From positions 12,834,001 through 12,898,000 of the forward strand of contig OX419760.1 of the NCBI GenBank assembly GCA_948567375.1: a stretch of 64,000 nucleotides of DNA, in the 5' to 3' direction. The DNA is from Lunularia cruciata (taxonomy: Eukaryota; Streptophyta; Marchantiopsida; Lunulariales; Lunulariaceae). Numbering within the stretch: the stretch's first letter is position 1; every line of letters begins with the position of its first letter. Below the pieces are notes generated by a model, which was not told where the DNA came from, did no database searches, and saw only the letters and a program-made list of their open reading frames with translations. Both the position numbers and the translations under genes were made by a program. Positions 761-23,439 of the stretch are shown here, piece by piece.

Positions 761-929
761 TTCTTTTTGGAAATACATTATATGAGCTATATATATGCTA
801 AACATTATATCATATGTTGGGTACCTAGTTGTGGAGCCTATGTGTAGGAGGTTGTTTCTAGATCTATCAAGGGTGGTAGTGCACATTTTATTCTCAACCG
901 CTAAGAACTTATATCTCAATTCTCAATCT

Positions 930-2190: not shown

Positions 2191-2194
2191 CAAG

Positions 2195-2780: not shown

Positions 2781-3059
2781 GCCATGTAAGTTAAATTGAG
2801 GGAATTATAAATGTAGATAATTGTCAAGATATCATTTTGGTAAAAGAGCAAAGTGCTAAAGATTTCAAAGTATGTATATTTTGATGAGTACAAAGTATAT
2901 GCTTCTCTATTTGACAAGTTCCAATTTTGTCTTTGCATGGAAGATTGAGCAAATGCCATGCATTCCTCAACAATTTGAGGAAAAAATGATTTGGTGAAGG
3001 CAGCTATACTTTTTTTGCAAAGATAATACAAATTAAACTCAAAGTTCTCCTTGTTGGTG

Positions 3060-4260: not shown

Positions 4261-5984
4261 TTGAGGACTTGAAAGACAATTTTCTAGACAAAAATATCTT
4301 TAAACTAAAAATTTCATGAGGTACTAGTTACTTGGAAAAATAAAGATACCTTTGTCAGGTGGCATCAAGATATAATGATACAAAGAGTAGAGAAATTAGT
4401 GAGAATGGAAAAATTAATGAGATGAAAATACAATATTTTCCTCATATAGGGTTGCCCTTTGGATTGATCTAACTTGAATATTTTTAATCTTTGGTCTTGA
4501 ATTGTAGAATTTAATGGTTGATATTAGTTATAGATTCAACTTATATCAACTAAAATTAATTAGACAAACTTCATATAATATAAGTACATGATCTATAAAG
4601 ATTTTTATTACAAGTCCAAGATCCTTCTATTTATTTTTTTGTTCAATTTCTACATACTAATTTTACATCTAGTGAGATTATCAAAGGATATTCTTATTTT
4701 TTTTCTAGTATCTTTGGAGATCCTACAACATCATCCTTGTATAAAATTTAGATCCAATATGCAAGAGTAGTTTTAGATAGATAGGATAAGGAGGAAAATT
4801 TAAGATCCAATATCAACAACAAGGATTGTGTGTCACACTTAGTATATATGGATGCATCTACAAGTCACCAAGGAAGCATTAGGAATTATTACAACAAATA
4901 CAAATGACAAATTTTAGGACATGGTCTCCATAATTTTAAGAAGACTTTACCGGGAAGAATATAAAATACAATCCACAAAATGTGAATATTTATACAGTAG
5001 GCTCAATATCTCAGTGTCTCCAATGTGTTAGTTGATTTTGGTATATTTTAGAGTGTCAATCCAAATGCTGGGGGATTATCAACTCCTTTGCTTGGCAATA
5101 AAGGACAAGGTAAAAGCATGATTTGTATAAGTTAGCAACAACAAATTAATACAAGAAGCAAGTTGTAAAACATCCATATGATTGGCATTTTACCCATGGC
5201 TAAACCAAATTTTTAGACTACAACAACAGTTTTACCTAGTGTGGAATTGAGACCTATGTTTCAACCTTTAAAAAAGGTTATAAAACCTTCTTCATGCAAA
5301 TTTGGTAGTGATAGTGATTCCAAATCCTTGTAATATGACATTTCACCAAAAAATACACCTATATATGCTCTCTCCTTCTCCATCACTATATCACAAAGTC
5401 CAATGTGTTCAACAAATTTCTCCTAACATACCTTCCAGTCAAATTGAAGAAGACTTTCTCTTCAAACCAACCTGATTTTAATTCTTGCCTTCTCTTCCTC
5501 AAATTTGTGAATTTTTTTTTGTCTCTTCCAGCTCACAATTTTTGAGTTTTTCCTTTCACTTTTGCCAATGTGGCCTTGTCACGCCTCACCTTTCCTCAAG
5601 AGTGCAATTTTTTTCTATTTTCTACCTATATTAGGGAGAAAGAAGCATATTATATGTTTAGGTAAGAAACCACTCAATATATTAGTATTTAGCTTCATCC
5701 TCATGTATGCCACGTTATGAAGGGGACTGCTTTGATGAATTTTCCGCCATCAACATTCAACTTGGAATTTTGTCATCTCTCAAGAGGAATTTTGTTGCAT
5801 GCACTTCAAGGCTAATATCTTTGTGGTTATATGTCCAAATGGAGAGGTCTTTATCTTGATAGAATTGGTTTCTCAAGGGCGTTCCATTGACACCAAAAGC
5901 ATAGTGTTTCAAGGCATGTAGTAAAAGGTATGACCATATGAAGTTACAACCACATGGACTTTATACATGACCCTCATTTTGGAT
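4261..5984. other. Unassigned AT-rich DNA
   Basis: No domain, RNA gene or repeat shared with the rest of the window was found. A GCTGGGGGATTAT tract near 5070 resembles the polypurine tract plus integrase C-terminus of a plus-strand gypsy, which would fit the relic at 3060-4260, but no TG-initiated LTR follows clearly. Confidence 0.3.
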
Positions 5985-6640
5985 CTCATTTCCAACCTCG
6001 CACTAAATATACTTGTACTTGTCTCCAACCTTGTAATCCTTATAATAATATTTTTTTTTTGACCTCATATTAATTGTACTTGTACTTTTTTCCAATCTTG
6101 TACTAATTATACAAGTACTTGTTTCCAACCTTGTACTAATGATACAAGTACTTATTTCCAATCTTTTACTCATTTCCAACCTTGTACTGATTGTACTCAT
6201 ACTTGTTTCCAACCTTCTTTCTAAATTTTTACTCCTTGTATTGTACTTGTCTCAAACCTCGTACTCATATCTCATTATCTTGTACCTTGTACCTTCTACA
6301 TGGACCTCATCCTTCATACTTTGTCCTTCATTTCCCATACTCATATCTTGTCTCAAACCTCATACTCAGACCTTCTATTCAACCTTGTACTCATACTTGT
6401 CTCAAACATTGTACTCATACCTTATTTCATACCTTGTACGTGGACATCATCTCATCCTCTTGTACACAAACCTCATCTTGTTTCTTGGACCTTGTTATCT
6501 TGTTCTTTGTATCGTGGACCTCATCTCTCATACTTCATCTTTTAGATGAAGTATGAGAGATGAGGTCCACAATGTACTTCATATCTCATACCTCTTATCT
6601 CACGATGTATTTCATATCTCATACCTCTTATCTCATACAT
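5985..6640. repeat. Low-complexity minisatellite-like tract
   Basis: The tract is made of degenerate repeats of CTTGTACT, CATACTTGT, CTCAAACCT and GACCTCAT, pyrimidine-rich on the plus strand. Long open frames here are low-complexity artefacts. At its right end a 34-bp unit containing TTTCATATCTCATACCTCTT is present twice in tandem (about 6573-6640). Confidence 0.75.
6514..6570. repeat. Perfect 27-bp inverted repeat with a 3-nt loop
   Basis: Bases 6514-6540 are exactly complementary to 6544-6570, separated only by TTT at 6541-6543. Each arm contains GGACCTCATCTCTCATAC or its complement. As RNA or single-stranded DNA it would form a long uninterrupted hairpin. It lies within the low-complexity tract, where the same words occur singly, so it may have arisen by a local inverted duplication. 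Confidence 0.95.
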
Positions 6641-6759
6641 TCAAACTTGCAAAGGAATGGGTAGTTTGTCACAATGCCATGAGTTTGTATCAATGATGAG
6701 TAACAACCAAAACAACTTCATACAAAATGACAGGTGGCTAACTTTGTTAAAAAAAGTAA

Positions 6760-7134
6760 GTGTCATCTCTCATATATAGGATAGTGTAGTTTTTGTAGTT
6801 TTAGTACAAGAAATTTTGTATCTATACAAATGTTGTACAAATTTAGTTAGGATATGATACAAAGATATTGTGTTATGATTGTCACCAAACACTTGATTGA
6901 AGGTCCAATTTAATAGTACAAAGGAAATGCATGCACCATGGTAGACACAAGAAAATACATGGTTCAACTCATTGAGGCTATGTCCATGGGAACACACTAG
7001 TAGATTTATTGATAGTGAGACTAATGTGTCACAAAGAGCTTCTACTAGCTCTCTTATATAGTAGTCCAGCCCTAGTCTAACTAACCATAGTCAAACTAAC
7101 TGGAGTTACTTAAGACCTGAGTTAACTCCTAACA
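6760..7134 (-). repeat. Ty1/copia-type LTR (3' LTR, minus strand)
   Basis: On the minus strand the LTR begins TGTTAGGAGTTAACTC at 7134, directly after a polypurine tract. Within it lie a TATA-like CTATATAAGAG (about 7053-7063) and a polyadenylation-like CAATAAATC near 7000. These are followed by the CCATGGACATAG...AACCATG tract typical of copia LTR 3' halves. The TG start, polypurine tract and promoter spacing together are persuasive. The exact right-hand end in element orientation (near 6760) is uncertain. Confidence 0.7.
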
Positions 7135-7147
7135 ATCTCCTCCTTGA
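7135..7147 (-). promoter_or_regulatory. Polypurine tract of the copia LTR
   Basis: The minus strand reads TCAAGGAGGAGAT immediately before the LTR start TGTTAG. This is the classical copia plus-strand primer arrangement. Confidence 0.7.
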
Positions 7148-9217
7148 CTCATGTCTTTTGGGTCTTTCCCTTAACCTCTATAACATATATGATTACTCTA
7201 TGGGGAGTCCTAGAAGGAAACCTAAGGTCCCTTTATAAACTAGAGTTAACCAGAATTAAGCCAAAGCCTAAACATGATAGAGTAAAATCATATATAAATA
7301 ACCTAATTGCTAGTCTACTCTACTTGTACCCATATGCAACACCTGCAATTTGGCACAATGTCTCAAAATTTTTCCAAAAGAATGTGTGTGTCTACTCTTT
7401 GTATGAATCTACATACTTAGTCACTTAGTTGTGAGGAATCTTGGCATGGAGGCATAAGCACTGGAGTGAGGAAATCATTTTTTTGGAACTAGAGGATAGA
7501 TCTTTAGGTGGTCTATATAGGTAAATGATGATATTCTAATGGACCTTTATAAGCCTAGATATCATTAAGTAACACAAATTAGGAGACCAAGTAGCATGAG
7601 CAATTCTAGTCTCATATAAAGTAGTGATTTTTTGGAAAGGTGGTGCTTATGTCAATTTTTTGTCATCAGAGTGATTGGACCCTTGGAAGATCTTACTCTT
7701 TTTAGTTTGCACATTATAGGACACTATTTGGGAGACATCCTCATATTGGCAATCTAGTACAACACAAACTTTGTAATGTGATTGTGGATATACTTATAAA
7801 TGTACTTATAAATGTCTTGATGGTGGTCATTAGCAATTTTGTTGGGCAATGAGGAAGGTGAAGAAATTTTATGGTGAAGTGACCTTCATTACAAATGAAC
7901 CATCACAATCAAGAATCCTATCTTTGATTTAATCTATTGTGAATGTGATTATTGATGATTTGCAATGCACTAGTGGTGGTGACTCTACACTCTTTTGGGA
8001 ATGACTATGCCCTAGAGGTTAAATACAAAGCAATAGATTGTCTCACAATGACACAATATCTTCATTTTTAGTCATTTCCAACATGTATCATTGAGAGAAT
8101 GACTTGTTCTTACCATTTATTAGTACATTGACATTGGGTTGTCTCATGCCTGACATGAAAAAGAAGAGGAGTCAAGGCACCTTTTTTATCCATCCATTTT
8201 TGATTCTAGTTGACAATGATAAACTTGCATTTTGTTTCCTTTTTCATTGGGTGGATCTTTTGCTTTAATAGCAAGAAGTAACCACAACTCTACTAAAAAT
8301 AATACTTTTTCTCTTCTTTTTTTGATTATAAAGATAATGCCAGAGTATCACATATGGGTCTTTTTTGAATCTGAATCTTTAACACACTCCTTCCAATCAA
8401 TGAGAAGAGGAATCTTCTCCTCTACTATAAAGAGTTAGTCTATGTAAACTATATGTTTGAACCGTCTTAAGCAAAAACAAAATATCGTTGGCCAAGTCTA
8501 ATTGATAAAAAATTTACCAAAAATATATCTTAAATTAATTTGGTAAAGGCTAAAAGGGTATATTGTTCTACCAAGCTTAGTTTGAGCTTTGTAAACTCTA
8601 ACTTCCTTGCATCAAGAAGTTGTACTAAATGAAAACAAAATATACCTTACAATTTTTTATGGTATTGACAAGTCATATAAGCATTGGTGTGTACTTAATT
8701 ACTCAAGAATATAAGTATTGGGGGGTTCCAAAAATGGGTTTCCAAGTTCACACAAAAGAATGATGGGATCTCTAGAAACTACATAAAAGGCACAAGGAGT
8801 ACTTGGGTTTTACAAGCAATATCTGTAGCCCAATAAAATTTTAGAGGTTACCTTTTTCATTTCTCATAAATTTTTATGGTGGTTCATAACCTCTAGAACT
8901 CCTTTGGAAAATATAGGCCACAATTTTCCAGAAACAAAAATGATATGATATGGTGAACTTTTAGGGTTTAGTTATTAAAACACCCACTTCTTTTTATAGG
9001 TACTCATTAAATAATTTTTATGTTTTCTTTTGAGTACTCATAAATAACCCATCAATAGCATTTTTGAAATGCACAATTGGACTTCAAAGTAGGGACAATT
9101 AGTTTCCACTTAGCAACTCTAAAGCAAAGACATTACAATTAGGTAGAGACTTAAACAATAAATAATATCACCTCCAAGAGATTTATTATGGTAAACTCCT
9201 AAGATTCACATACCATA
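7148..9217. other. Unassigned sequence upstream of the copia LTR
   Basis: By position this should hold the 3' part of the copia internal region on the minus strand, but I could not recognise RT or RNase H motifs. No open frame exceeds about 95 codons. Confidence 0.3.
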
Positions 9218-9720
9218 CTAGTAGTTTATATTTGAGCACTTTTGACAAGAGTTTACACTTTGAGTAGTTCTTGATTGAGTTATAAATAATTGTGTTAAGG
9301 CAAGATGGATGACTATGATTGACAAATACAAAATTAATGATCCAACCTTTTGGATGGCAGGTAGTGCTTGTTCCATTGTCAAATTTTGAACCTTCTTTTG
9401 AAATTGGAGAATCCTTTCCTTGAAAGTTGTCTTCTCAATTATTGCAATCTTCTCTACGTTCAACTTTTCTTCTTGATGTGTGTCCAATTGCTTCAAGTCT
9501 TCATCAGGTTTTTAATTGCTTTGGATTTTGTCTTCTCCTAAAGGTATGTACTATGAAGATTGGCCAACTCTCTCTCAAGATTGGTTACCTTGAGTGTACT
9601 TTAGGGCTCATTCTTCACATGCTTTAAATTTATATTCTTCAGGGTATTTATTTCCTCTTGCAATGCGATTGATTTGGCACCTTGCTTCTTTACTCTTCTC
9701 AAAAGTAAAGAATCTTTCTC
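9218..9720 (-). pseudogene. Unknown coiled-coil-like reading frame relic
   Basis: The minus strand is open for 92 codons at 9218-9496 and continues with stops to about 9720. Its composition is rich in Lys, Glu and Gln with heptad-like spacing, for example KTTFKERILQFQKKVQNLTM. This could be part of a transposon gag or coiled-coil protein. I do not recognise a family. It lies just left of LTR X. Confidence 0.3.
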
Positions 9721-9739
9721 TTGAAAGTCTTTGCTTCCA

Positions 9740-10200
9740 TGTAAAAGATCAAGAAGAGAAATAGGAAAATGGAAGACTGGAGTGGAAGATCACATTGGTA
9801 CTCTTAAGTAAAGGAAACTCCAAATGCCTAGCATGAGCTTGGGCTTTGGTATTTATAATGAATCAACAAAAGGTTCTTAAGAAGCTTCCAAAGAAGCTTC
9901 TCCTTCTAAGCCACCTTCTTGGAGTGCAAGCTAAGCTACCCTAGAAGCTATCAAGGAAGCTTCCTACTCAAAGCCACCTACTTGGTGTACTAGCTAGCCG
10001 TCAGCTTGACATACAAGTTACTCTACCCTAGGAAATTTCATAGAATATTCTTGTTGTGTACTTCTAGAACATTCTACCCACAAGCTTTTTTGATGCTTCC
10101 ACATATTTTTAGGCTATTTATACTTCTTTTTACTATATTTAGCTTAGACTACTAACTCATTAGCTTCTACCAACTTATTTACTAACTCCATATTATTACA
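9740..10200 (-). repeat. LTR family X, copy 1 (chromovirus 3' LTR)
   Basis: On the minus strand it runs from TGTAATAATATGGAG at 10200 to TCTTTTACA at 9740, giving TG...CA ends and about 461 bp. It follows a polypurine tract and a chromodomain relic. It aligns with the copy at 60240-60749 and with both arms of the inverted repeat at 49800-50402. It contains repeated AAGCTTC words. Confidence 0.75.
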
Positions 10201-10212
10201 TATTCCCTTGTT
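10201..10212 (-). promoter_or_regulatory. Polypurine tract of LTR X
   Basis: The minus strand reads AACAAGGGAATA immediately before TGTAATAATATGG. The homologous copy at 60750-60760 has GTGAGGGAATA in the same place. Confidence 0.6.
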
Positions 10213-10665
10213 GTTAGTTGGTGATGTCCTCATCACTATGGAATATTTAAACTCCTATAGTGTTGTTTATGCATTATGGATATGAGAGAGAGGCTCCCAT
10301 GTAGCATAATGATGGGGAATCCTTTCCAAAGGACCTTATATTCAATGTGTTGTTGGTGGCCACATTGGATATCGTTATGTGCAAGTATATAATCAACTTC
10401 ATATTCCTCATGATCATTGATAAGGATAGGAAGAGGTGGAGGAGGTTAGACACAAGTAGAAAAGAAAGATATCTTAGAAACAAAGAGTTTTAAATGTGAA
10501 ACATGGAAGACAAGATGGATCTACATATGATTAGGGATAGCAAGTCAGTAGGCAATGGGAGAAATGATCTAAGTAATCTCAGATAGACCTATCCAATTGG
10601 GAGCAAGTTTACGGACTTGGGTATTGAGTGGGTCTCATGTGGGAATCATGTGGGCCAAACTAGTC
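10213..10665 (-). pseudogene. Chromovirus integrase C-terminus and chromodomain relic
   Basis: Minus-strand translation shows an integrase tail with KLAPNWIG and HLVFHVSHLKLF (about 10640-10470), then a proline-rich spacer. The chromodomain follows with EEYEVDYIL (about 10410-10385) and HIEYKVLWKGFP (about 10355-10320). After a frameshift comes ATWEPLSHI. This is the standard YEVE...YLVKWKG...TWEP chromodomain of Ty3/gypsy chromoviruses, which binds histone H3 marks. The polypurine tract and LTR X follow directly. The upstream pol has been cut off at about 10666 by repeat W. Confidence 0.8.
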
Positions 10666-10667
10666 CC

Positions 10668-11398
10668 ATAGTGGAGAGATAGTGGACTATGTGACATAAG
10701 GAAGGTGACTTATGCAGCCTTATGCACAATTGGGCTTCAATGTGGCTTGGGGAGGGGTGGTAGTTGGACTTTTGTAGTCAAGTTTTTCCTCATTGGGGAA
10801 CAAGAAATTCCCATAGACACTTACCTTGGAGATGGTTCAAGAGTCTATCACCTCCTTCAACCTTTTGTAATATCTCACTGATCCTTAGAATAGACAATGA
10901 TAAGGAGAAAGCTTATGAGGAGGGACAAGGAGTATTATTCCATAAACAAAATTACACTAACTCCAACATTGCCATACATTCAATCACCTATTTGCAACAA
11001 TCATATGAAATTCTCCTTTTTATTGCCTTTCAATGGATTGAACCTTCTTTACTACAATTATAAATATAGTGTATGTTTGATGTTTGATAGCCAATCTTGT
11101 AGTCCCTTATTACTATGTGTCCATAAAATGAGCCCAATCTCTTGGAAATTTAAGAAAACTAACATGTGCCTATGAAGTTCTATCTCTCTTAAGTATCTAC
11201 GTTACCTTTAAAAAGAATTTTAATCTAGCCTTAATTGCTTTGCCTATAGTAGGTAGCCGTTGCACTTCATGCTTCTTCTATCCCCTTCATTAGATGTTTT
11301 CCTAGATAATCATAGTCTAACATGATAGTGTACTATTGGTTCTTTTTTACAATCCTAAATTAGGACTTCTTGCTGATGGGTTCTTGCCTTTTGCTTCA
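10668..11398 (-). repeat. LTR-like repeat family W, copy 1
   Basis: The segment aligns by eye with 43120-43892. Shared landmarks are AGTGGAGAGATA, CATAAGGAAGGTGACTTA, CACTTACCTTGGAGATGGTT, TAGATGTTTTCCTAGATAATC and TCTTGCCTTTTGCT. In minus orientation both copies begin TG(A/G)AGCAAAAGGCAAGAA. Each sits inside coding sequence of another gypsy, as expected for a solo LTR, but the opposite end is not clearly CA and no target duplication was confirmed. Confidence 0.6.
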
Positions 11399-13485
11399 CA
11401 ACATAGCACTCTCTTAAGATGTTGCACTCAGGCAAGCTGCTACTTTTTCTTCTTCCATTTGTTAGTGGGAGCAAAGAATTGGGCATTCATTTGATAGAAG
11501 GTTCACATGTGATACTTCTACTGGTAGTCCCAAAAAATGGATTTTTGTACATTGATGAAGCCATCCATATGAGCTATCCCCAAGGTCATTCCAAGTCAAC
11601 AATCCCACATGTCAGCTTGCTGGACCAGATACATAAAGGTAGTATTTTGGATCTCTCGCCAAAATGGGTTGAAGGCACTTCCCTCCTTCACATCATTCTG
11701 TCCTATCCAATGATATACTTGGATTAAGACCTTGCAATATACGATTGAGTGGAAAACTATAGGATCTTTGGAGGTATACCATTGATCTCAACATTTACAT
11801 AATTTCTTGCACGATTGTAGGATGATGCCGCACATCTGGCCAATATTATGGCTTCTTCTTGTAAGAGAAATGTCAAATTCCTCATGAGCAAGGTATTTCC
11901 ACATCCAATTGTTCTTGAAATGTCTCTTTATCCTCTAGGAAGGGCCTCTAATTGGGCGGGTAAGCCCATTGTCTCCATGTTGGCATAGGTAGGAATGACC
12001 AAGGCAAGACCTTTATATTAGAGACAACCAACACAACAAAATATCTACTGGGATCATTAAGTTGGCATGGTCTTGGAATTGGACAACAACATGTGGAATT
12101 TGGTCATGTCTAAGAACATAATGGAAATCCTCATGTACTACAATGGGAAGTAAGGGACTCCTTACCTTGTTTTTCCATTATAGGTGGTATGATATAGGAA
12201 GTCCTTTTACTATGGGCTTGCTTGATTTCAGGATGTACAAGGTAGCTCTTGGGCAGTCTGATCTGCTTGAATCCTATTCCTCCTTGCTGAGATTTGCTGA
12301 GATCTTGCATTTTGTTATAACATTTGACCATGCAAGCGCTTAGGGCCTCATAAGCTAGAGAATATTTGAATTCTTGAACTAAGGAAGTCCAAACTTGCTT
12401 CTCTAATGCTCTTAGGGATGTGTCTAGCAAGTGGGAAAAGTTGGTCTAAGTCTTCTCTCCCAATTGGTCAAACAAAAACTCAACTCTTGCACCACTATAT
12501 TGATGTGCACATTTAGGGACCCAAGATTGCTTCTAATAATAGTATTGCAAGCACTCTATAATCAAGTATCCTTGTGGATATGGGCAATTCTGCATTCATT
12601 ATCCAAGCTACTTCAATGTATTCCCTCATTGGACATACATGTGGCTTCAAAGCTTAGCCTTGGTTAACCAACTTGAGGTAGTATATCAAGTACCTTAGGT
12701 GAAGTAGGATAGATGCACTACTACATAGGTCAACTCATGAAGATTTTCCTAAAAGATGTCCATCTATAGAATAGCTTTAGCTAGCACACACCTGGTTCTC
12801 TAGAGTTCCCAAAATTCCACACCAGATGCCCTCAGAGTCACACACATAGCAAGGCAAATTGTTCCATCCTTAGAGTCACTCAAAGAGAGACATGATGGGT
12901 GATTGCCACTCTTGTGATCAGTAATGCAAGATCAAATTAGTAGATCTGGTCCACCAAGATGAAGACTAACATCTCTTGCTGTAGTTGGTTGAAGGTTGTG
13001 AATATCTCCTTCTGCATATCTTGTGTAAGATCAGGTCAAGGAAGGAAGGGATACTAGGCTGATCATTCTTTATCTACCATATAGAATGCCTCCACCACCA
13101 ATTCCACTTGATTCATGTTAATGACTCATAGAGGCCAAATTGTCATGAAAATTGGGGTGGAGTAACCACTATAGGATTATAGCTGGACCCATGGTAAGGA
13201 GGAATGACCAAGGGTACCCACTCCTAAAAATCATGGGGATCTTGTGAAACCTACTTGACTTGGTCCAAGATAGCTTCTAGTGCAAGTGCTATATGGCTGT
13301 TATTGACCATGCACAACTTTCTAACCCATTGATCTTCAGCATGTGTTGAGAAATGACCACTTTTTATATGGGATCTCTAGGTTTCACAGCTTGGGAGATA
13401 GTTATGAAGTACAAGAACTCTTCCTCTAGAGTAATGGTACATTTTACTACTTTCTTCACTAGTTCTGTCACTTTTAGAGGCAAGT
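11399..13485 (-). pseudogene. Decayed minus-strand coding region of unknown type
   Basis: Minus-strand frames such as 12131-12430 (99 codons) and 13364-13485 suggest an eroded protein, but I recognise no domain. Before insertion of the element at 13491-23434 this segment was continuous with the decayed frame at 23435-26560. Joining the two flanks across one TGGTT keeps the frame open, with the end near 13364 reading AVKPRDPI then a stop. Function unknown; transposon origin is likely. Confidence 0.4.
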
Positions 13486-13490
13486 TGGTT
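13486..13490. repeat. Target-site duplication TGGTT, left copy
   Basis: TGGTT directly abuts the left end of the methyltransferase-bearing element and is repeated at 23435-23439. Five base pairs is the usual duplication for Ty3/gypsy integrases. Confidence 0.8.
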
Positions 13491-13596
13491 GTCGTGCGTA
13501 TATACATCGCTACACAACATACATCGCTGTCAACATCATACACTATAAAATCACAACTCACACATAAGTCATACATAGACTCTAAAGTGCCACAAT
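13491..13596 (-). repeat. Terminal repeat A, outer copy
   Basis: This 106-bp segment runs from GTCGTGCGTATATACATCGC to GTGCCACAAT and differs from the inner copy at 14048-14153 at only two positions. It forms the left end of the insertion, directly next to TGGTT. No copy exists at the right end. Confidence 0.9.
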
Positions 13597-14044
13597 AATC
13601 AGATTGCTTAACATTCTCAACTCAACTCAACTCAAATCAGTACTTGATCTGTCACTCTATAAACTGCCAACAACTGGGCACTGATTACAGTCAAGCCACA
13701 CCCACTCAAGCATAGAGAATCCAGGTGACGCTCGCCGGCCTCTGTCCACCATAGCCAGGAACTCGAAGGCTCAACATCAGGGAAGTGAGCTCTCTGGAGC
13801 TCACTTCAAAACTATACCCCCTGGACTTGAGCTAGCCTTGAAACCCTAACGGTCCCGCTGATGGCACACTCGACGGTGCAAATGGTGCAAAGTGACGGTG
13901 GGCCCCACCGTGAAGTCAGTACCCCGAACACAAAATCTAACCGTCGGAAAGTAGTCCTTGAGAAACTGCTAGAATAACTCTAACTACCATCACTGGAACT
14001 CCAGTGTTCGAGCATCTAGATGCGGAACTACAAATGGTGTGACA
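13596..14044 (-). repeat. Terminal repeat B, left copy (3' LTR body)
   Basis: The 449-bp segment in minus orientation begins TGTCACACC and ends CTGATTA. It matches 22986-23434 with 10 transitions. At least five of the ten sites lie in a CG dinucleotide in one copy and TG or CA in the other. That is the expected trace of deamination at methylated cytosines. Confidence 0.93.
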
Positions 14045-14047
14045 GCT

Positions 14048-14153
14048 GTCGTGCGTATACACATCGCTACACAACATACATCGCTGTCAACATCATACAC
14101 TATAAAAGCACAACTCACACATAAGTCATACATAGACTCTAAAGTGCCACAAT
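14048..14153 (-). repeat. Terminal repeat A, inner copy, probably the start of the true LTR
   Basis: In minus orientation it starts TGTGGCACTTTAGAG directly after a polypurine tract, so it is probably the U3 start of the LTR. A TATA-like TTTTATAGTG lies about 50 bp before its junction with B. Three bases (GCT on the plus strand) separate it from B. If the full LTR is A plus B, its length is about 557 bp. Confidence 0.75.
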
Positions 14154-14162
14154 CGCCCCCTA
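14152..14162 (-). promoter_or_regulatory. Polypurine tract of the methyltransferase element
   Basis: The minus strand reads TAGGGGGCGAT immediately before TGTGGCACTTTAG. Its position fixes the LTR start at the inner A repeat rather than at B. Confidence 0.65.
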
Positions 14163-14319
14163 GCTGGCGGTTAGGTCCCTCTAACTCCAGATAGCCATCT
14201 ACTCTAAGTATATGGTATACCCTCTAATGGGCAAAGATCAGGAGGCCGGGTGCTATGGAGCCCCATCGTTAGTCGCCTGTCTGCAATCTATACCATATAA
14301 AGAATGAACTAGCTATAGG

Positions 14320-14460
14320 TCAAGTACATCTAGGACATAACCACTGTCCCTGAGGAACCACCGTGAGAGGAGGAGTCATACATGCCATATGCCATCCTCT
14401 CGAACAGCTATCACACATTAACATAGTAGCAGCTCCACCAGAAGAGCCACATAACATACA
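14320..14460 (-). pseudogene. PHD finger at the C-terminus of the integrase
   Basis: The last 46 residues before the TGA stop contain CMLC, MCDSC, GWHMAC and WLCPRC. The spacing is C-x2-C-x11-C-x2-C-x4-H-x2-C-x14-C-x2-C, a textbook C4HC3 PHD finger, including the conserved Trp two residues before the seventh ligand. PHD fingers bind histone H3 tails or other chromatin marks. It sits in the same open frame as the integrase, about 40 residues after its C-terminal module, exactly where chromoviruses carry a chromodomain. The inferred role is steering integration to chromatin with a given histone state. All eight zinc ligands are intact although the polyprotein upstream is broken. Confidence 0.92.
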
Positions 14461-15660
14461 CCTCAAGCCTGCACGTACAAGTGCCAAGCTTGGGTCCATA
14501 GTACCATCAATGTTTGGAAGGTAGCATGGCGCACAATTGCGCACATGATCCTTCCAAACAACACCATCACGTCCTTCTAACACAAGGACTCTAGATGGCA
14601 AAACCTCGCGCACTCTCAAGATAGTGCGGCCTGTAGAAACATCAAGTGTCGTTGGTGCTATCTGCTGTAGATATACATAGTCGCCTAGATGAAATCGACG
14701 GATCGAGGGTCTATAACCTCCTCCTCGAATGGTAGCATAGCGTAAAGTATCTCTATGCTGAGCAATCGCCAAGTTCTCAAAGGCCATCGGCATCACTCTC
14801 TGATAGATCTCTGCCCGCTGAGAACATGTGCTCATCCATACATCGGGGTCATCCAAGTCCAAAACTACAGTAGCATCTCGACAAATGGCTGCAGGTAAAT
14901 CTGGATCCCATCCATAGAGTAGAAAGTATGGAGAGAAGGATGCTAAGGAGGCTTGCCGGCTGAACCGATAGCCCATGGCCAACCAAGGTAACTGGAGATC
15001 CCAATCTCCCAAGTGGCCTCTCTGCAAACCATACTTTCGCAATCCTCTCTTCACCGTCTGAACCACTCTTTCTGCTAAACCATCTGCCTCAGGGTGATCT
15101 CGGGATGTAGTACAATGATCAATCAAAGCCTTGTCACACAAGACCTGAAACTCTCCCAAGAACTCTGTACCCTGATCAGTCAAAACCTCAGCTGGTGCAC
15201 CAAAATGACTAAGAACTCGATCCAGGAACGAGTAAGCTGTCCCTTCACTAGACTTGTCAGGAAGTGCTACCAACTCAATCCACTTGGAGAAGTGCTCCAC
15301 CATCACCAAAACATACCGATGATGTCTCACAGTCAGCGGTAAAGGTCCGGCGAAGTCCAAACTTCAACGGTAACCCAATCCCATGATAGGTAATGGGTGT
15401 AATTGTGGCGTATGAGCATTGAATGATGCTCTAACTCGGTCACAAACCACACATCTGGCAACAAACTGCTGTACCTCGGTCTGCATACCGCTCCACCAAT
15501 AATGACTCTGGAGTAAGCTATATGTATGCTTTACTCCAAAATGTCCTAGCTCCTCATGAGCATGACGGACCAACTGTGGTCTCTGTGATGGAAGTGGTAC
15601 TACTCGCACTCTACCATCCTCCCATACATGCAAAAGGTGTCTACCCTCCAATCTGAACCG
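14461..15660 (-). pseudogene. Ty3/gypsy integrase
   Basis: An HHCC zinc-binding domain lies at about 15560-15440, with HAHEELGHFGVKH followed by CVVC. The catalytic core begins with DFAGPLP near 15357 (first Asp). It continues with LTDQGTEF near 15177 (second Asp) and HPEADGLAERV near 15070 (Glu); the last two are 35 residues apart, the DD35E spacing. A C-terminal module with GGYRPSIRRFHLGDYVYLQQ and RVREVLPSRVLVLEGRDG ends near 14580. An in-frame TGA at 15364-15366 separates the zinc domain from the core and looks like a single-base change. Integrase joins cDNA ends to host DNA with a 5-bp stagger, matching the TGGTT duplication. No chromodomain follows; a PHD finger does. Confidence 0.93.
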
Positions 15661-15969
15661 TCTGGCTCGCTGAAGAACACGGTCTCTCTCCTTGGCCCCA
15701 ACTGTGCCACCCACAACACCAGTGCGAAGATAGTCCACCACTAAGACATCATCATGAATGTCTCGCTGAACTATACCAATATCTTCACTCTTTGGATCTA
15801 TGACCTCAATAACTCCTCCTGTATGCGCTGAGAGAGATACCACCAAAGTCTCTGCAAATATACACAGAAAGGCCGATGCATGCGAACCTGGCACCATCTC
15901 CTCATCTGTCTCACCATGCCAACGTGCTCCGGTCTGATCCTGCTGGCTGGGACATGGGTTTCTACTCAA

Positions 15970-16330
15970 CCCATCTGCATCATGGTTCACCACTCCAGGT
16001 CTGTGAACAACCGTGAAATCATACTCCTGTAAAATCAGAGCCCATTGTGCAAGCTTCCCTGAAAGCTTGTCGGACTCCATCAACCATTTCAGCGGCTGAT
16101 GATCAGTGATGAGAGTGAAGGGGTTACCAAATAGGTAACATCGGAAATGTGCTACTACCCAAACTGCTGCCAAGCACTCTCCCTCATATGAACTATACTT
16201 CGCCTCCGCTGAATTGTTGGAGCGACTAGCATAGGCCACCACAAACTCCTTCTCCTCATCATCATGTTGGGTGAGCACCGCTCCAAGCCCCAACATACTC
16301 CAATCAGTGTGAACCTGAAATGGTCGTCCC
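15970..16330 (-). pseudogene. RNase H domain
   Basis: After a one-base frameshift near 16330 the frame reads VHTDWSMLGLGAVLTQ, then AYASRSNNSAEAKYSSYEGE, then ITDHQPLKWLM, and ends near VNHDADGLSR. These carry the acidic residues of the Ty3/gypsy RNase H fold (Asp in HTD, Glu in YEGE, Asp in ITDH, Asp near the end). It would degrade the RNA strand of the RNA-DNA hybrid during reverse transcription. It continues in the same frame into a spacer and the integrase zinc domain. Confidence 0.9.
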
Positions 16331-17330
16331 CTGATCGGTCCTCAAAATAGGAGCAGATGTCAACCTCTCCTTGAGCTCTACAAAAGCTCTCTCCTGCTCA
16401 TCTCCCCAACACCACTCCTCTGTAAGCTTGGTCAGCTTCGTCAAGGCTTTGGCAATGGCACTAAATCCTCTAACATAGCGGCGATAGAAGTTCGCCAACC
16501 CAAGGAATGCTCGCACTCTGCTCACATCCGTAGGCCGAGGAATACGTGCAATAGCCTCCACCTTGGTCTGCTGGACACCAAGTCCTCCGGGGTAGATAGT
16601 GTGACCCAAATACTCAACCTGCTCGTGGAAGAACCTACACTTCCCAGGATGTAATTTGAGTCCATGAGATCTCAACCTCTCAAACACCTCCAACAACTGT
16701 CTCTCATGCTCCTCCACAATAGTGCTATAAACCAAAATGTCATCAATATAGCACCAAGCAAAATCCAATCCAGCTAAGTTCCTATCCATGACCCTCTGGA
16801 ACTCAGCAGGAGCGTTCTTCAACCCAAATGGTAAGAACCTCCACTAATATAACACATCCTTGCCGTGAGGATCAAAAGCCCAAAATGCTGTCTTGGACTT
16901 ATCTTCCTCCCTGATCGGCAACTGATGATATCCTGCTCGAAGATCCAAAGTACTGAAGACCTTTGCATGCCCAATCGCATCAAAAATCTCCTCCGGTGTA
17001 GGCATGGCATACCGATCAGCCCTAGTCTATCGGTTGATAGGACGGTAATCTCCACACATCCGCCTATCTGTATAGTTGCCATGCATATCCTTCTTGGCTG
17101 GCATCACTATCGCTGATGCATACTCTCCATGTGAAATCTCCACCAAACTAGCCTCAAAAAGGTCACTACTCCGGCTCTGAATCAATGTCCTCTCCATATC
17201 ACTATATCGATAAGGACGTCGGAAAATTGGTGTGTCGCTAGTCAGCTCAATCCGTATACCAGGTCCCTTCAGAGCACCCAAATCCTTCATACTGAAGGCA
17301 AAACAACTCGTGTGACTCCTCAAGAACCTC
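16330..17330 (-). pseudogene. Ty3/gypsy reverse transcriptase
   Basis: Landmarks in one frame are GIRIELTSDTPIFRRPYRYS (near 17260), YASAIVMPAKKDMHGN, CGDYRPINR, STLDLRAGYHQLPI (motif A), WRFLPFGLKNAPAEFQRVMD (motif B), CYIDDILVYS (motif C, near 16750) and KCRFFHEQVEYLGH, followed by the connection segment. Two TAG stops at 17027-17029 and 16844-16846 sit where the family has Gln, consistent with C-to-T changes. The catalytic residues of the YIDD box are intact. The frame is shared with the methyltransferase upstream, and a frameshift at about 16330 leads to RNase H. Confidence 0.94.
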
Positions 17331-17769
17331 CAAACCCTCCGTCTTTCCTCTCCAGTAAGCTTGGGTCCAAGATCTGGCTCCCAAGTATCCTCTGTAACTG
17401 TAGTAGGAGTGGAAGACGTACTGACTGGCTGCTACACGGGGCCCTTGGGAGCAATGGTGTCATGCTCCCGACCACTAGAATTCCCAACCTCTGTGTGAAA
17501 AACTCCCTCCACTGTGGCTGCAAGCTCCATACGTCCTCTGGCTGCATCCCATGTGGACCAAGGGTGTAATCCAAGTAGCCCACGCTCACCTGGATGGACT
17601 CCAAGTAGACCACTCTCCCTAGTAGCTACTGGATGTGTCCCAAGAATACCATGTCCACTCGGTCCATCGCCCCCAGCATGTGCCTGAATCGTCTTGATAG
17701 GCACATGGCTCACAAGTGTCCGAGTGGTGATGCCTATCAAGCGCATCCTACGTTGCTCTGCCAAGCCAA
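17330..17769 (-). pseudogene. Spacer between methyltransferase and RT with a GLLGxHP repeat
   Basis: This part of the polyprotein has no recognised domain. It contains three related heptads, GILGTHP, GLLGVHP and GLLGLHP (about 17655-17565), spaced 10-13 residues apart. A TAG stop lies at 17432-17434, and the segment ends in a Thr/Glu-rich stretch before RT. It may be a flexible linker or hold a protease cleavage site; nothing stronger can be said. Confidence 0.6.
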
Positions 17770-18724
17770 GGCTCACAATCCAGGTCAAATAGTTCAGGTC
17801 CATAGCCTGACCTAACACCTGACGCCTGGATGCCTCTGACACTACTGGAACAGCGGTAATACCGGTGCAAAAACCCATTGCCCGCTCTCTCTCATCAGCA
17901 TTGGGCTCCACCAACTGCTGTAACTGTGAGTCCCAAACAAGTCCAGGTCCTCCCTCTCAAAAAGCATGAGAGCCTAGGAAACTCATGAGTGTGGGAAATG
18001 CAGCTCTAGGCTGTCCAACTAGGTTCACCACTGCCATAGGTGACCTATCAGCCACTACCACTGTCTGAGACTGACGTCCAACATCCAAGATATCATCAAC
18101 AAGAATGTGGTCTAGTCGTTGAATCCCATCATAACTACGCTGTAGAACCTCTCTGGGTAAAAGGTTCGTCCACCAAAGACGAAGATGATGAGCCCGTGAT
18201 CCCACTCTGGCTGCATCTAACAATACAGCAGGTCCCATCCATGAATAGACATGATGTGTACTCGCCACCACTCTAGTGCAAGAATCACCCATCAATGGAA
18301 CGTTCTCCAAAAGGTAAGCTGGAGAAACAGACTGATGAACCTGGAGATGTCGTAGTATCCGTAACATCTCCCAAAACACACCAAAACAAGGATCCTGAAG
18401 ACCCAAACCATGGCCTGTACGTGTATGTCCCTGACATGGCCATCCAGAAATCACCAAGTGAATAGGCCCATGTCTCTCTAGGTCATGTGCCCCCAGTAAG
18501 GAAATGTCTCATGGTAAGACCTTTTGGTAACCTCTGACTGCTGACATCGGTAATAACTCCGGATATCGATAGGCCAAGTGTGCCACATGATGTAGAGAGA
18601 CTCGCCTAGCAGTCTCATCTCTCTCTACATACAAGTACCTATGTACTCGGATACCCGCCTGTAACACCGCAGCTAGTCCGGTGCTGATCCCACCAAACAA
18701 CTCCAATAGACATATCCCCTCTAC
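17770..18724 (-). pseudogene. C5-cytosine DNA methyltransferase domain inside the pol polyprotein
   Basis: Motifs appear in the canonical order in a single frame. Motif I is LLELFGGISTG (18709-18677), followed by the acidic loop YLYVERD for S-adenosylmethionine. Motif IV is GWPCQGHTRTG (near 18440) with the catalytic Cys of PCQ. Motif VI is LLENVPL (near 18307). A motif VIII-like VGSRAHHLRLWW is near 18210. Motifs IX-X are FPTLMSFLGSHAF and RRQVLGQAMDLNYLTW (to about 17780). Two TGA stops (18509-18511, 17957-17959) replace probable Arg codons. The enzyme would transfer a methyl group to carbon 5 of cytosine. It lies between protease and RT and is free of flanking host domains. The PCQ box resembles DNMT1-like or bacterial enzymes more than the PCN of DRM/DNMT3, but I do not assign a subfamily. 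Confidence 0.92.
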
Positions 18725-19065
18725 TAGATACTGCCAAGCAATGAGTGTGGTATCCAGAGGTGTCAAAGCAATCGCCTCTGGAGGCTCATCCTCACACTCA
18801 TCCCCTGATGGTACAAAGGCTCCACTCCAAGCCTGCTGCACCAACTGATCTGCATGTTGCTGCAATGCCTCCTCTGAACTCCACAATGGAACATCCAAGG
18901 TGGATGGAACAATCCCACTTGTACTCCATAGCCGAGTGATCTCCTCTGGTACTGGAGTACCCCTCCAACAAGTCACCAGGCCAAGTAACTGCACCGCTGA
19001 AAGCCAAAACAGATGCTGCCATGGTCCCAGAGTGTAGTGATCCAAGACTGCCACTACTGAAGCGT
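18725..19065 (-). pseudogene. Polyprotein segment between protease and methyltransferase
   Basis: The methyltransferase frame is open from about 19065, starting around VVAVLDHYTLGPWQHLFWLS, and runs through an acidic stretch (SGDECEDEPPEAIALTPLD) into motif I. The Trp-rich start and acidic tail match no domain I know. The change from the protease frame occurs near 19065. Confidence 0.6.
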
Positions 19066-20606
19066 ATTGGTAGGCGACATACCCGTCCCTCACCAGACTG
19101 CCAACCAGGTCTATAAGAGGCTGTCTCCTCCCAATAGTCAATACTGAAACCCATGGGGTATAACACTGCTCCCCCAACTAGCACATCATATGACTCAGCT
19201 ATCGTCGCAATAGCCTGAGCTCTCACCACCGAGCTATCAGTCGGATGACCAGGCTGAACCTGGACAACAAGCTCTCCACGTGTGATGTACTGTGTCGAAC
19301 CACCACCAAGAGATGTTTGGATCTGAAATGGACACCTCTCCACATCGGTCTTCCGTAACTCCAGACCAACAATTGCAGCCTTCCCCAACATAAGGGGCTG
19401 CGCACCAGAGTCTAACAAGACTCTCTGTGGTGTATAGACCTTCCCTGAAGGTCCCACCAAACGAAAGATCCCCCTCTGGTTATCCAATAGGACAACACCA
19501 AGTGTAAACCGCGCTCTCTCAAAGGCCGGTCTAGCTGGCAACTCCTCCAGTCTAGCCGCTGCTGCCTGCCATAAACCACTGGTCGCTGAACGGATCCCAT
19601 GCTCATCAACCAAGTCAGCTCCACTACCAACCACCTCTGCTCTAGTAGTAGGAACTGCACCATCCCTACTCTCACACAACGTGGCAGCCAACCGGAACAC
19701 TGGGGCTGGGTCAACTCCCAATGTAAACATGTCACTGGCTGAAAATAAAGGATGCCGCATAATCAGCTGAGCCGGCCCCAACATCATGCTAGACTCAGTC
19801 TGTGTAGTAGCAGGTGGCTGACTAGCAGGTACTCCATCAGGTACTCCATCACCACCTACCACACCTGCACTGGGACGTCTAGGAACCATGGATGTCGTCT
19901 GCAATGCCTCAGATAGCGTGAAAGACTGGGGAAGTCTGACCTGTCTCCCAACCTCTCCTCTCTGTGGGTCCAACTCCACTGATGCTCCTCTAGGCTCTGG
20001 AGCATGTACTGCACTCCTAGTCACTGCTGCAGATGCATCCACCTGTGCTGCTCCGCACATGAAGTCCAAAGCATCTCTATCACCAGCATATGAGGTGGAA
20101 GCCTCAGCACCCGAATCTGATCTCCTCTGAGCAATAGCCATACTAGCCAATCTCTGCTCCAACTGCTCAATCCAACTAGCCATAGCTGTGTCAAAAGTAA
20201 GGGCAGGTACTGCACCCCTACTAGGTGTAGATCCTCTACCACCACCTCTACCACCTCGTCCTCCATGAACTGGAGCTCCTCTACTCCCTGCCATAGCAGC
20301 CCTACCACTCCGTAACTCCAGGTGTAGGTCAAAACACCGATCACTAGTGTGACCAAATCTGTGGCAATGCTCACACTGCCTCTGTGCTGGCTGTGATGCA
20401 CCAGAGGTATCAGGTCCGCTGCCCTGAGTACACTCTCTCCTATGGTGAGGTCCACCACAAGTCCAACAAGCAACACCACCACTCACTGGCTGCTGCTGAC
20501 CCAAAAATGAGGGTAAGGGTCTAACTCCACTAGGCCCTCCACTCGCTCCATAGGATCTGGGCTGTCCACCCTGTCCTCGAAAACCAACTGGGCGTGGTGC
20601 ACTCTG
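19066..20606 (-). pseudogene. Nucleocapsid zinc knuckles and aspartic protease
   Basis: Just after the TAG that ends gag, the same frame encodes two zinc knuckles. CWTCGGPHHRREC (20468-20430) has slightly unusual CX2CX3HX4C spacing; CEHCHRFGHTSDRC (about 20375-20334) is canonical CX2CX4HX4C. A Gly/Arg-rich basic tract follows (HGGRGGRGGGRG), then a long low-complexity spacer. The retropepsin has active-site RVLLDSGAQPLML with its Asp near 19412 and a flap-side SYDVLVGGAVLYPMGF near 19180. The protease would process the polyprotein. The frame is lost near 19065, where the methyltransferase frame takes over. Confidence 0.88.
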
Positions 20607-21710
20607 CTACACTCTAGAAGAAGTCACAACCGTGGATGAGGTCTCCCTACCAAATCCAGATGTCACCACTCTCTCCTCCACCATGTTGAGCTCAATACGC
20701 TCAGCCAAACCAAAGACTACTGCCAAAGTGGGTGAAGTAGCCTGCAACAACGTAGCATCACGAACTCTACGTCGCAACTCCTTGTCCAGTATCCTATACC
20801 AAAATTGGACTGCCTGGACCTCAGTAACTCCCTGAGTGAAACTGATCAGCCGCCTCATGCGAGTATATGCCTCGCGTAAGCTCTCTCCAGCCTTCCGCTG
20901 GAACTCATGCAAGCTCCTCAGCTTGTCAGTCCGCACTCCCTGGTAGTTCTGCCTCAAACATAGGAAGAACTCAACCATGGGGTTAAACCCCGGTACCACA
21001 CCACCTCCTGCAGCGGTACCTCCACTCGTAGTAGCACTATCTCCAGCTAGTGCACCTCCACTAGCTCCACCAACACTACTCGAGCTAGAACTCGTAGGTA
21101 CAGCCGATCTACTCCTGGCCACCGAGCCTAAAGTGATGGAGACATAGTGTGGAGACCAATAATGTCTCCATAACTCAATCTCCTCCAAATGAACTCTCCT
21201 GAACTCATGGTAGTCGTCCATCGGTGGACCCTCCAAGTGCTGAAACAACCCCTTCCATGCCATGAAGGGTGTGAACAAAGTCGGGTTCCGCATCTGCTGC
21301 AGATCACACCAACTATCAAACTCCTGGATGAAGTCATCCAACTTAATGGTACCCACTGTACCAGAGTAACGCCTAGGGCCTTTGGAGGCCCCATAAATCT
21401 CGTCCATGTCCCACAACAACGATGCGGACACACCAAGTGCACTCTCAACTGAATCAGCTCCTATGTCAAACTCCAACTCAGAGTCAATCTCCTCCCTCAC
21501 TTGGACCTGAGATACAGGCTGATACCGAGCACCACTCCAAGTAAACCCACTGCGTACTGCAAGGCTAACTCCTCTGGAATCTCCAAAGAACTCCGTCGTG
21601 ACCACGTAACTGCAACAGCAAACCCAAACCACCAACTGCAACCGCAAGTCACAACTGCAAGTGCCCCACCAAGTGCCAACACCAACTAGACACCACCCAC
21701 TAATGTAACT
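20607..21710 (-). pseudogene. Gag (capsid) polyprotein
   Basis: The open frame of about 368 codons (346 after the first possible alternative start) lacks an in-frame ATG near its beginning. The first internal Met reads MDEIYGASKGPRR. A Ser/Gly-rich spacer precedes a capsid-like stretch, LRSLHEFQRKAGESLREAYT then RRLISFTQGVTEVQAVQFWY, typical of retrotransposon gag. It ends at TAG 20607-20609 followed by CAG, and the same frame continues into the zinc knuckles. The stop may be a nonsense mutation or a read-through signal. The true N-terminus is unclear because frames shift near 21650. Confidence 0.8.
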
Positions 21711-22983
21711 CTAACCAAGATAACTACACTAGGGGAATGGCAACCTGTAACCTGCCATCATAACACGCACTCTCACAATCTGCAGGTCATCACTTCCTGC
21801 CTCACCGGAGAGAAACAAAGGTAGTCTGACTGGTCATCACTCCAGCCTCACCACCGAGAGCACACCAGAGCACCAACGCTCAAAAGTCAAGGCACCTCAC
21901 ACAAACGTGGTGCACAAACAAGAAGCAGAGAATGGAGGGGATCCAATCACAAGAAATCTAAATGAAAACCCTCCATTTCATAACACAACACGGGATTGAC
22001 TCTACCACCATTTGGCATTTGACATAAGAGTAGTTCGTATCTAAGTCCTAAGCTACCAGGATCACCAAGAATGGGATCAAACTGCCTCTCCTAGCCAAAG
22101 CTACATGTGTATAGATAATAGTGGCGCAGTCACTAGGACAACAAGTGAGGGTGGACCAATTGGCTAGGGCACCAGTCTAGGAACAAGAGATCTAGGGGTC
22201 AAACCCTGTTGCGCACAATCTAGCAGGAAAGGCAGATTTTGCCAACCAATGACCAAGATCTACTCTAAACTAGCTAGTCTCACGCCAGCAAGCTGGCTTG
22301 CTAGCCCTTTTGGCCCTTCTAGGCCTTCATAGCCTCTCATAGCCCACAGCCCTGTGCCTCGAAGCCTCGAAACGCCAAAATTCAGCCAAATGAGGCCTTT
22401 CTTGTTGCCACTTCGAACCTCCTCCAAAATTGGCGAAACTTCTCCAAATCTGCGAAACTCCTCCAAACTAACGAAACTTCTCCAAATCTGGCCAACAGCA
22501 AAACTCCTCCAATTCTGGCCGTAAATCTGACGTAAATCTGATGTAAAATCTGACGTAAACCCTAAAGATGGATGTCCGCCAAATCCCCCGCTAACTTTCC
22601 ACTCGAGCCAAATTGACAAAACGGGTTTTTCCAAATCATAATTTCATGAGGAGAGCTTTCCAACTCCACCTTCAATTTCACTTTCTGAGCCCAACTCGTA
22701 GCAAATTGGTCCTGCCTTCACCTCCTAAGCTCAAAATCACAACACTGCTAAAAAATTGCTCCTTCTTTGCTCAAAATTTGGCCAGCGCTTCCGCACACCG
22801 TCCGCCTAACTGCCAAATTTGCATCAACTACACGAGCTTCTGCACACTAGCTTCTGCACACTAGCTTCTGCACACGAGCTTCTGCACACTAGGGAATCGA
22901 GCTACCACGATCCACCGAGCTTGGAGATACCACCAACACTCAACGTTCCTGCACCCGATTTCCCCCTGACTTCACTTCTCTGA
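21711..22983 (-). other. 5' leader of the element with three minisatellites
   Basis: About 1.27 kb lies between the right LTR and gag. It has no recognisable domain, although 22260-22634 is open on the minus strand. It contains a roughly 20-bp unit with CGAAACTTCTCCAAATCT repeated about five times (22413-22518), an 11-bp unit GTAAATCTGAC about 3.5 times (22521-22560) and a 14-bp unit CTAGCTTCTGCACA four times (22833-22888). Confidence 0.7.
22960..22983 (-). promoter_or_regulatory. Possible primer-binding site region
   Basis: Just inside the right LTR, whose minus-strand end is GATTACA, the sequence continues TCAGAGAAGTGAAG. The ATCAGAG overlap recalls the initiator-Met tRNA primer site, but the match is too short to be sure. 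Confidence 0.3.
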
Positions 22984-23434
22984 TGTAATCAGATTGCTTA
23001 ACATTCTCAACTCAACTCAACTCAGATCAGTACTTGATCTGTCACTCTATAAACTGCCAACAACTGGGCACTGATTACAGTCAAGCCACACCCACTCAAG
23101 CATAGAGAATCCAGGTGACGCTCGCCGGCCTCTGTCCACCATAGCCAGGAACTCAAAGGCTCAACATCAGAGAAGTGAGCTCTCTGGAGCTCACTTCAAA
23201 ACTATACCCCCTGGACTCGAGCTAGCCCTAAAACCCTAACGGTCCCGCTGACGGCACACTTGACGGTGCAAATGGTGCAAAGTGACGGTGGGCCCCACCG
23301 TGAAGTCAATACCCCGAACACAAAATCTAACCGTCGGAAAGTAGTCCTTGAGAAACTGCTAGAATAACTCTAACTACCATCACTGGAACTCCAGTGTCCG
23401 AGCATCTAGATGCGGAACTACAAATGGTGTGACA
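22984..23434 (-). repeat. Terminal repeat B, right copy (5' end of the element)
   Basis: In minus orientation this 451-bp repeat starts TGTCACACC at 23434 and ends GATTACA at 22984. It directly follows the target duplication and lacks the A segment that precedes B at the other end. Confidence 0.9.
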
Positions 23435-23439
23435 TGGTT
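23435..23439. repeat. Target-site duplication TGGTT, right copy
   Basis: Identical to 13486-13490 and directly adjacent to the right end of the element. Confidence 0.8.

Follow-up and report, generated by a model that had tools for sequence, protein, structure and literature searches.

Can a plant retrotransposon carry both a writer of DNA methylation and a reader of histones, and does it do so as a lineage? The question was raised by a locus of Lunularia cruciata (GenBank assembly GCA_948567375.1, contig OX419760.1, positions 12,834,001 to 12,898,000; these 64,000 nucleotides are hereafter the window), in which a first-pass annotation had placed a Ty3/gypsy retrotransposon encoding a DNA methyltransferase (MTase) as well as a PHD finger. 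We located the whole element at 13490..23434 on the minus strand, beginning with TGTCAC and finishing with CGACA, and identified it as a broken-frame member of a high-copy Ty3/gypsy-type family with Gag, protease (PR), DNMT3-type MTase, reverse transcriptase (RT), RNase H (RNH), integrase (IN) and PHD finger. A lineage uniting both modules in the annotated order was borne out; the window copy itself, with six stops and two frame changes, is not translatable end to end. The reading that we favour, tentatively and with slightly less than even confidence, is that of a retrotransposon from an old green-plant lineage whose copies would arrive pre-marked in silent chromatin.

The order from gag to PHD could be followed along the minus strand of the window. 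The gag frame (20610..21710) gave a weak Pfam match under the cut-off (Retrotrans_gag, 0.036). Next comes a frame at 18801..20606 with zinc knuckles (at 20468 and 20375) and, in place of a protease match to Pfam, of which the window frames had none, an LLDSGAQPL stretch at about 19418. The MTase, broken in this copy, has approximate limits of 17761..18721 and barely passed the cut-off (DNA_methylase, 6.9e-5). It is followed by RT pieces at 16307..17431 with YIDD at about 16750 (RVT_1, 8.5e-21), by RNase H and the zinc-binding part of the integrase at 15367..16341 (RT_RNaseH, 8.2e-36; Integrase_H2C2, 2.8e-18), and by the integrase core and C-terminal part at 14323..15363 (rve, 5.5e-12), with the predicted C4HC3 PHD finger indeed present as the last domain (14323..14466; PHD, 2.1e-11). 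Ty3 was the best PDB relative of RT-RNase H (E 2.5e-96), and the RT-RNase H-integrase order with a DDE integrase is that of Ty3/gypsy elements. The integrase had been annotated as DD35E; the DDE residues are there and the spacing differs, being D(59)D(34)E with the glutamate that of GLAER and the D-E distance counted by hand. In-frame stops lie at 20607-20609, 18509-18511, 17957-17959, 17027-17029, 16844-16846 and 15364-15366, and of the two frame changes, one falls between 18801 and 19177 and the other near 16.3 kb. At its end, the 18801..20606 frame is no longer in phase with the MTase.

We then searched the genome assembly (566 Mb, 74 contigs) for further copies. The MTase-stop-RT junction was found at 40 places at 98-100% (1944 candidates). 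With a DNA_methylase profile, 2161 first-look candidates yielded 123 scored places, mostly with a profile span near 48-120; at least one of them (L016) is a host gene, DRM-like by its rearranged motifs. Twenty further copies were taken down this match list and were thus selected by their MTase, copies lacking it being outside the sample. In all 20, on seven contigs, integrase and PHD lay downstream of the MTase. Open stretches can be long outside the window: L009 and L010 each run for 1428 codons from gag to past the MTase.

The MTase shows the C5-methyltransferase motifs that had been annotated, in canonical order: motif I at about 18709, PCQ at about 18448, ENV at about 18313, VIII at about 18199 and IX/X at 17896-17827. 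Its best PDB match was DNMT3A (2.6e-10), DRM2 reaching only E 0.025. The structure was predicted with a pLDDT of 93, and a fold search with this model returned DNMT3A, 3B or 3C for all of the best 50 folds listed, with a target TM of about 0.8. Motif order and catalytic fold are thus those of DNMT3, and cytosine-5 methylation is the activity that sequence and model predict. PCQ is kept in 15 of the 19 aligned proteins that carry the MTase before RT; the others have PCV, PCL or ECQ, and one is a gene model without the stretch. Among relatives more broadly, WECQ, WECN or PECK replaces PCQ in many cases, e.g., P0027-P0033, P0129, P0139, P0157, P0166 and P0173. In P0113 from Volvox reticuliferus, the PC and EN motifs are absent by eye, and this MTase, which still stands ahead of integrase-PHD, is likely inactive.

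A UAG codon followed by CAGCCA lies between the first and second open reading frames (ORF1 and ORF2; 17432..17434, minus strand). It separates Gag-PR-MTase from RT-IN-PHD, so that the MTase is on the Gag side. TAG was present in 29 of 30 aligned stretches and CAGCCA in 28; the exceptions are L040 (CAGCAA) and the second copy in L059, 87%, with GTG and then CAACCA. The six bases after the stop fit CARYYA in 29/30, all but the TAG row L040. Readthrough of the tobacco-mosaic type has UAG-CARYYA as its context, and the stop found here is of that type; ORF2 would accordingly be reached by readthrough. L011 and L012 have the two ORFs in the same frame, separated by nothing but the TAG. The ORF1 proteins P0003 and P0004 of Marchantia terminate 82 residues past the MTase, and that of L. 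cruciata 111 residues past it. In Closterium P0166, P0172 and P0176 and in the metagenome proteins P0165 and P0168, MTase and RT are joined in a single protein; some of these are gene models, in which an intron may be hidden or a stop passed over.

At the other end of the polyprotein, a chromodomain was not found after the integrase: 14323-15363 gave rve and PHD-type matches alone (Pfam, E up to 0.1). The closest solved relatives of the PHD finger by sequence include CHD4, KDM5, KMT2D, PHF12, PHF21A and ATXR5. Methyl-lysine (H3K4me3) readers carry a cage tryptophan, and the PHD finger has G at that position. By sequence it looks like the type that binds unmodified H3, the ligand being a guess; the predicted structure of integrase-PHD was weak (pLDDT 67.5). 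In three algal-type relatives (P0026, P0042 and P0025), a further stretch follows the PHD, with DPWAGTG ... NDLN ... TSPWF in P0026. By eye it resembles a second S-adenosylmethionine-dependent methyltransferase; Pfam gave no match in this stretch of P0026 and P0042.

We next consider the ends of the element, which had been annotated as matching terminal repeats. The 3' end does hold a copy of the 5' repeat; these are not ordinary long terminal repeats (LTRs), since the 5' end has A alone and the 3' end B-A-B. In element orientation, the plan is A1 (449) - primer-binding site - ORFs - polypurine tract - B1 (107) - 2 nt - A2 - B2, all on the minus strand. Repeat A1 (449 nt, 22986..23434) is the entire 5' terminal repeat, with no B in front, and the primer-binding site CATCAGAGAAGTG (22973..22985) follows it immediately. 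The polypurine-tract-like CTAGGGGGCGA (14153..14163) stands ahead of B1 (107 nt, 14047..14153), its last base being common to B1 as bounded. A GC spacer (14045..14046) within the palindrome GACAGCTGTC marks the B1/A2 boundary, and A2 (449 nt, 13596..14044) is followed by B2 (107 nt, 13490..13596), which ends with CGCACGACA. The element is flanked by the target-site duplication ACCA at 23435..23438 on the 5' side and at 13486..13489 on the 3' side. Eight of nine copies (the window included, by eye) have 4-bp duplications outside their TGTCAC...CGACA ends, the exception, L027/L028, being the most diverged. In a second set (12 pairs given), the same held for 6 of the 9 copies with the A1 start in the piece; of the rest, one has a duplication with a single mismatch and two have a damaged B2. 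TG...CA ends and a short target duplication are as in Ty3/gypsy elements, and the identical LTR that these have at both ends is missing.

A plain LTR pair was rejected, as no B precedes A1 in 19 copies whose 5' piece held the A start. These are ten copies (the window and nine others, L021 with only 74 nt of A) plus nine of twelve pieces; left out of the count were L033 (no A), two pieces without A and one beginning inside A. At the 3' end, B-A-B was present in 29 of the 31 copies examined; L065 breaks off within A2, and L034 (519-625, reverse strand) stops precisely at the CA of B, lacking A2-B2. The element sequence of L034 begins inside gag-protease; it could represent the reciprocal form, a form with a single repeat or neither of these, and it does not decide the end model because its 5' part is missing. 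All but one of 22 readable A/B joints were identical, and the B/A spacer was GC in 16/22. The sole deviating A/B joint, between A2 and B2 of L069, has an extra G that is also present ahead of B1 in the polypurine tract, as if plus-strand priming had shifted. One of the eight copies with duplications, L037/L038 (TCTT), had inserted within the 3' region of a sister copy, and this accounts for the repeated 3' unit seen there.

The primer-binding site matches the element itself. Its reverse complement CACTTCTCTGATG lies in A1 (23165..23177, minus strand), about 29 nt past a TATA-like GGGTATAG (23202..23209) of putative function; the stretch would be both transcript start and self-primer, the start being a prediction. 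Complements in A1 were found for only two of 8820 interior 13-mers, and these overlap at the A1 boundary. A tRNA primer for the first strand was set aside: the boundary site resembles only part of an initiator-Met site, whereas it matches the element's own leader. A perfect 11-bp inverted repeat GAAGTGAGCTC/GAGCTCACTTC was also observed at the predicted transcript start (23172-23197 in A1, 13782-13807 in A2).

The end structure is solid. Judged by the polypurine tract and the primer-binding site, the LTR is B-GC-A; the ends used in integration are those of A...B. The observed form would result if a two-LTR circle were opened at the palindrome GACAGCTGTC so that both ends had two bases in common; with free cutting, the reciprocal isomer A-B-A-coding-B should occur at an equal rate, and the strong 3' B-A-B bias (29/31) counts against this. 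It is possible, if rather doubtful, that the ends made by RT (polypurine tract/B...A/primer-binding site) differ from those used by the integrase (TG of A1, CA of B2), which would cut the internal palindrome CA-GC-TG in circular or end-joined cDNA with a precise A/B joint; packaged DNMT3 would have methylated this cDNA beforehand and the PHD would steer it, a plan that would be as old as green plants.

How might these parts work together? We favour the pre-marked arrival of copies in view of the integrase and PHD in all 20 further copies, the near-constant UAG with its context, the DNMT3-like MTase model, the sequence type of the PHD finger and the conservation of both modules in relatives; the de novo CG methylation reported for retrotransposon DNMTs (PMC5890265) also speaks for it. 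Most ribosomes would halt at the UAG and produce an excess of Gag-PR-MTase, with RT-IN-PHD made by readthrough, and the MTase would thereby be packed into the particle in many copies. The element's own leader would prime first-strand synthesis, the MTase would methylate the fresh cDNA no later than integration, and the PHD finger would steer the integration complex to chromatin without H3K4 methylation. Copies would thus arrive already marked in silent chromatin, which may spare host genes and let the element persist. Between them, MTase and PHD would play the roles that in a DNMT3 fall to the catalytic and the ADD domain of a single protein.

Several points weigh against this reading. At least one stop lies within the MTase match in 18 of the 20 further copies, and the Closterium and Mesostigma relatives have WECQ instead of WPCQ. 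The PHD finger lacks, by eye, the acidic stretch that algal-type relatives have before the second cysteine pair, which makes its ligand unsure. Pooled pN/pS among copies speaks in favour, at 0.32 for protease (26 rows), 0.46 for MTase (28 rows), 0.61 for integrase (25 rows) and 0.43 for the integrase C-terminus with PHD (28 rows), values that serve as a rough guide only, the copies being related; the RT row (5 mixed rows, ratio 0.61) is unusable. Also in favour, C-to-T differences from the majority base in 20 copies reached 6.8% at CG and 6.2% at CHG, far above the 1.4% at CHH and 0.7% for A/T transitions. This decay suggests that the copies are methylated. Ordinary plant host methylation would leave the same pattern, which counts against the reading. 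A1 and A2 differed by 0.9-2.7% in eight of nine copies and by 11.8% in the ninth. As for the surroundings, the CpG observed/expected ratio is 0.12 in window positions 1-12000 and 30001-64000 versus 0.48 in the inner piece of the element, and an RNase H of another retroelement occurs in a 245-aa ORF at 62724-63461 (minus strand; PF17917, 2.3e-33).

The CG and CHG footprint, together with the DNMT3 type of the enzyme, would also suit a truce between host and element in which the MTase acts in trans and silences older copies after expression, not its own cDNA in the particle. We hold this to be unlikely: the enzyme is encoded with Gag ahead of the UAG, which favours packaging, and host enzymes can explain the footprint, the DRM-like L016 being one such gene. 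Likewise, the MTase might act on the element RNA, or serve as a nucleic-acid-binding or DNA-protecting factor, DNA methylation not being its role. Its place in the Gag-proximal polyprotein, the varied catalytic motif of relatives (WECQ, PECK, WECN) and the Volvox protein P0113, without a PC motif by eye, would fit such a role, which we judge rather improbable given the retention of PCQ in most before-RT rows (15/19) and of all motifs in the L. cruciata copy.

Relatives were found well outside L. cruciata in three protein searches (44 matches; 398, of which 120 were listed; and 14 matches). Marchantia has MTase relatives, 56-73% identical among the matches listed, and one protein (P0064) with MTase pieces and PHD. 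Sphagnum fallax has a relative with MTase pieces and integrase. The nearest named integrase among the matches listed is from Riccia sorocarpa, 91% over 51% of the query, in a model that consists of integrase only. MTase relatives also occur in Closterium and in a Mesvir1 protein, read as Mesostigma viride; integrase-PHD relatives occur in Klebsormidium and Haematococcus (among the matches listed) and in Volvox, there including one with a degenerate MTase. Many metagenome proteins were also among the relatives; IMG/VR contigs gave no relative.

Across 164 proteins, the MTase stands either before RT (18 GAG-PR-MT, 5 MT-RT-RNH-IN with or without PHD, and others) or between RNase H and integrase (17 RT-RNH-MT-IN-PHD, 24 MT-IN-PHD, and others). 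The integrase(-PHD) tree of 130 rows contains a 47-row clade with an SH-aLRT of 100, made up of 40 rows without an inner MTase, 4 with the MTase before RT, 2 fragments and 1 with the MTase inside. Misfits are P0042 (MTase inside) and the long-branched P0046, which fall within this before-RT clade, and P0043 (before RT), P0092, P0102 and P0125 (without inner MTase), which fall outside. In the MTase tree of 60 rows, the two positions split with 100/100 support; this tree omits P0006, P0013, P0042, P0043, P0045, P0046 and the DNMT3A outgroup, and adds P0113 and nine of the twelve new proteins from the 14-match search. An earlier MTase tree with other rows gave 66/47 for the split, and 200 of 200 bootstrap trees checked showed one change. 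Named streptophyte rows are on the before-RT side, and the long-branched Volvox row is on the other.

The trees of MTase and integrase thus share one deep split that matches the position of the enzyme. In our reading, the enzyme was acquired once, long ago, and changed its place once, which would revise the acquisition in the K. nitens lineage presented in PMC5890265. Host DNMT3 sequences are outside both trees, so two captures from one host gene line would be compatible with them. Instead of a single acquisition, MTase and PHD could have been captured separately and repeatedly by unrelated elements, their pairing being convergence, as the text of PMC5890265 proposed for the Klebsormidium MTase. 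The two places of the enzyme in the polyprotein, the sampling of the trees outside plant host DNMT3 and the 66/47 support with other rows speak for such captures, which appear quite improbable in the face of the 100/100 split over 60 rows and the matching 47-row integrase-PHD clade (SH-aLRT 100). That the window holds a chance chimera or an assembly join, for which broken frames and nothing beyond would speak, is practically excluded by the 20/20 copies on seven contigs with integrase and PHD, the 4-bp duplications and the homologues in other genera.

Which known systems does the element resemble? DIRS/PAT retrotransposons have split direct repeats of the same A-coding-B-A-B form; they use a tyrosine recombinase and are not known to make target duplications, whereas the element described here has a DDE integrase, 4-bp target duplications and TG...CA ends, and no tyrosine recombinase was found among the Pfam matches of the window frames searched. 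Animal DNMT3A/3B share the fold of the catalytic domain, the motif order and the logic of reader plus writer; unlike in these enzymes, no ADD or PWWP was seen beside the MTase, and the reader is on the integrase. KnitGypsy-Dnmt3 of Klebsormidium nitens, the nearest element known, combines Gypsy domains, a non-rearranged DNMT3-type enzyme in the polyprotein and A-coding-B-A-B repeats as in DIRS elements, a likeness by description only (PMC5890265). The main text of PMC5890265 does not contain PHD, and the passages on the element give neither a readthrough UAG nor a self-priming site, and neither TG...CA ends nor target duplications. A K. nitens integrase-PHD protein, P0053, showed 55% identity over 75% of the query (among the matches listed); it is outside the tree sampling, and P0070, 84% to P0053, falls inside the 47-row clade, no K. 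nitens row being in the MTase tree. The L. cruciata element and KnitGypsy-Dnmt3 probably belong to one old green-lineage family.

Chromoviruses (Tf1/Sushi, Tcn1, Chlamyvir, CRM) also have a chromatin-reading domain at the integrase C-terminus, and Tf1/Sushi and Tcn1 are self-priming (PMC6317226), a feature that the leader-complementary primer site, with its predicted transcript start, would parallel. The present element differs by a PHD in place of the chromodomain, by the MTase and by split repeats; PHD, methyltransferase and Marchantia are terms absent from the main text of PMC6317226. SymbioDIRS-Dnmt3 and SymbioLINE-Dnmt are further retrotransposons with a DNMT, of other classes and in dinoflagellates, and retrotransposon DNMTs can methylate CG de novo, as given in the text of PMC5890265. 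Ginger1-9_HM has a PHD finger behind a gypsy-type integrase and is described as a Hydra DNA transposon with a Ulp1 domain and no MTase (PMC2836005). A retrotransposon with both MTase and PHD was not described in the literature searched, most subscription journals and preprints being outside its coverage.

If our reading is true, a writer of DNA methylation and a reader of histones would have travelled together with retrotransposons for much of the history of green plants, and Klebsormidium would be no isolated case of an element-borne DNMT3 but one instance of an old strategy. The split ends challenge the rule that the ends produced by reverse transcription are the ones on which integrase acts. 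A readthrough stop that sets the dose of the enzyme would allow a clear test of self-methylated cDNA, and the relatives in Marchantia, a laboratory plant, make such tests practicable.

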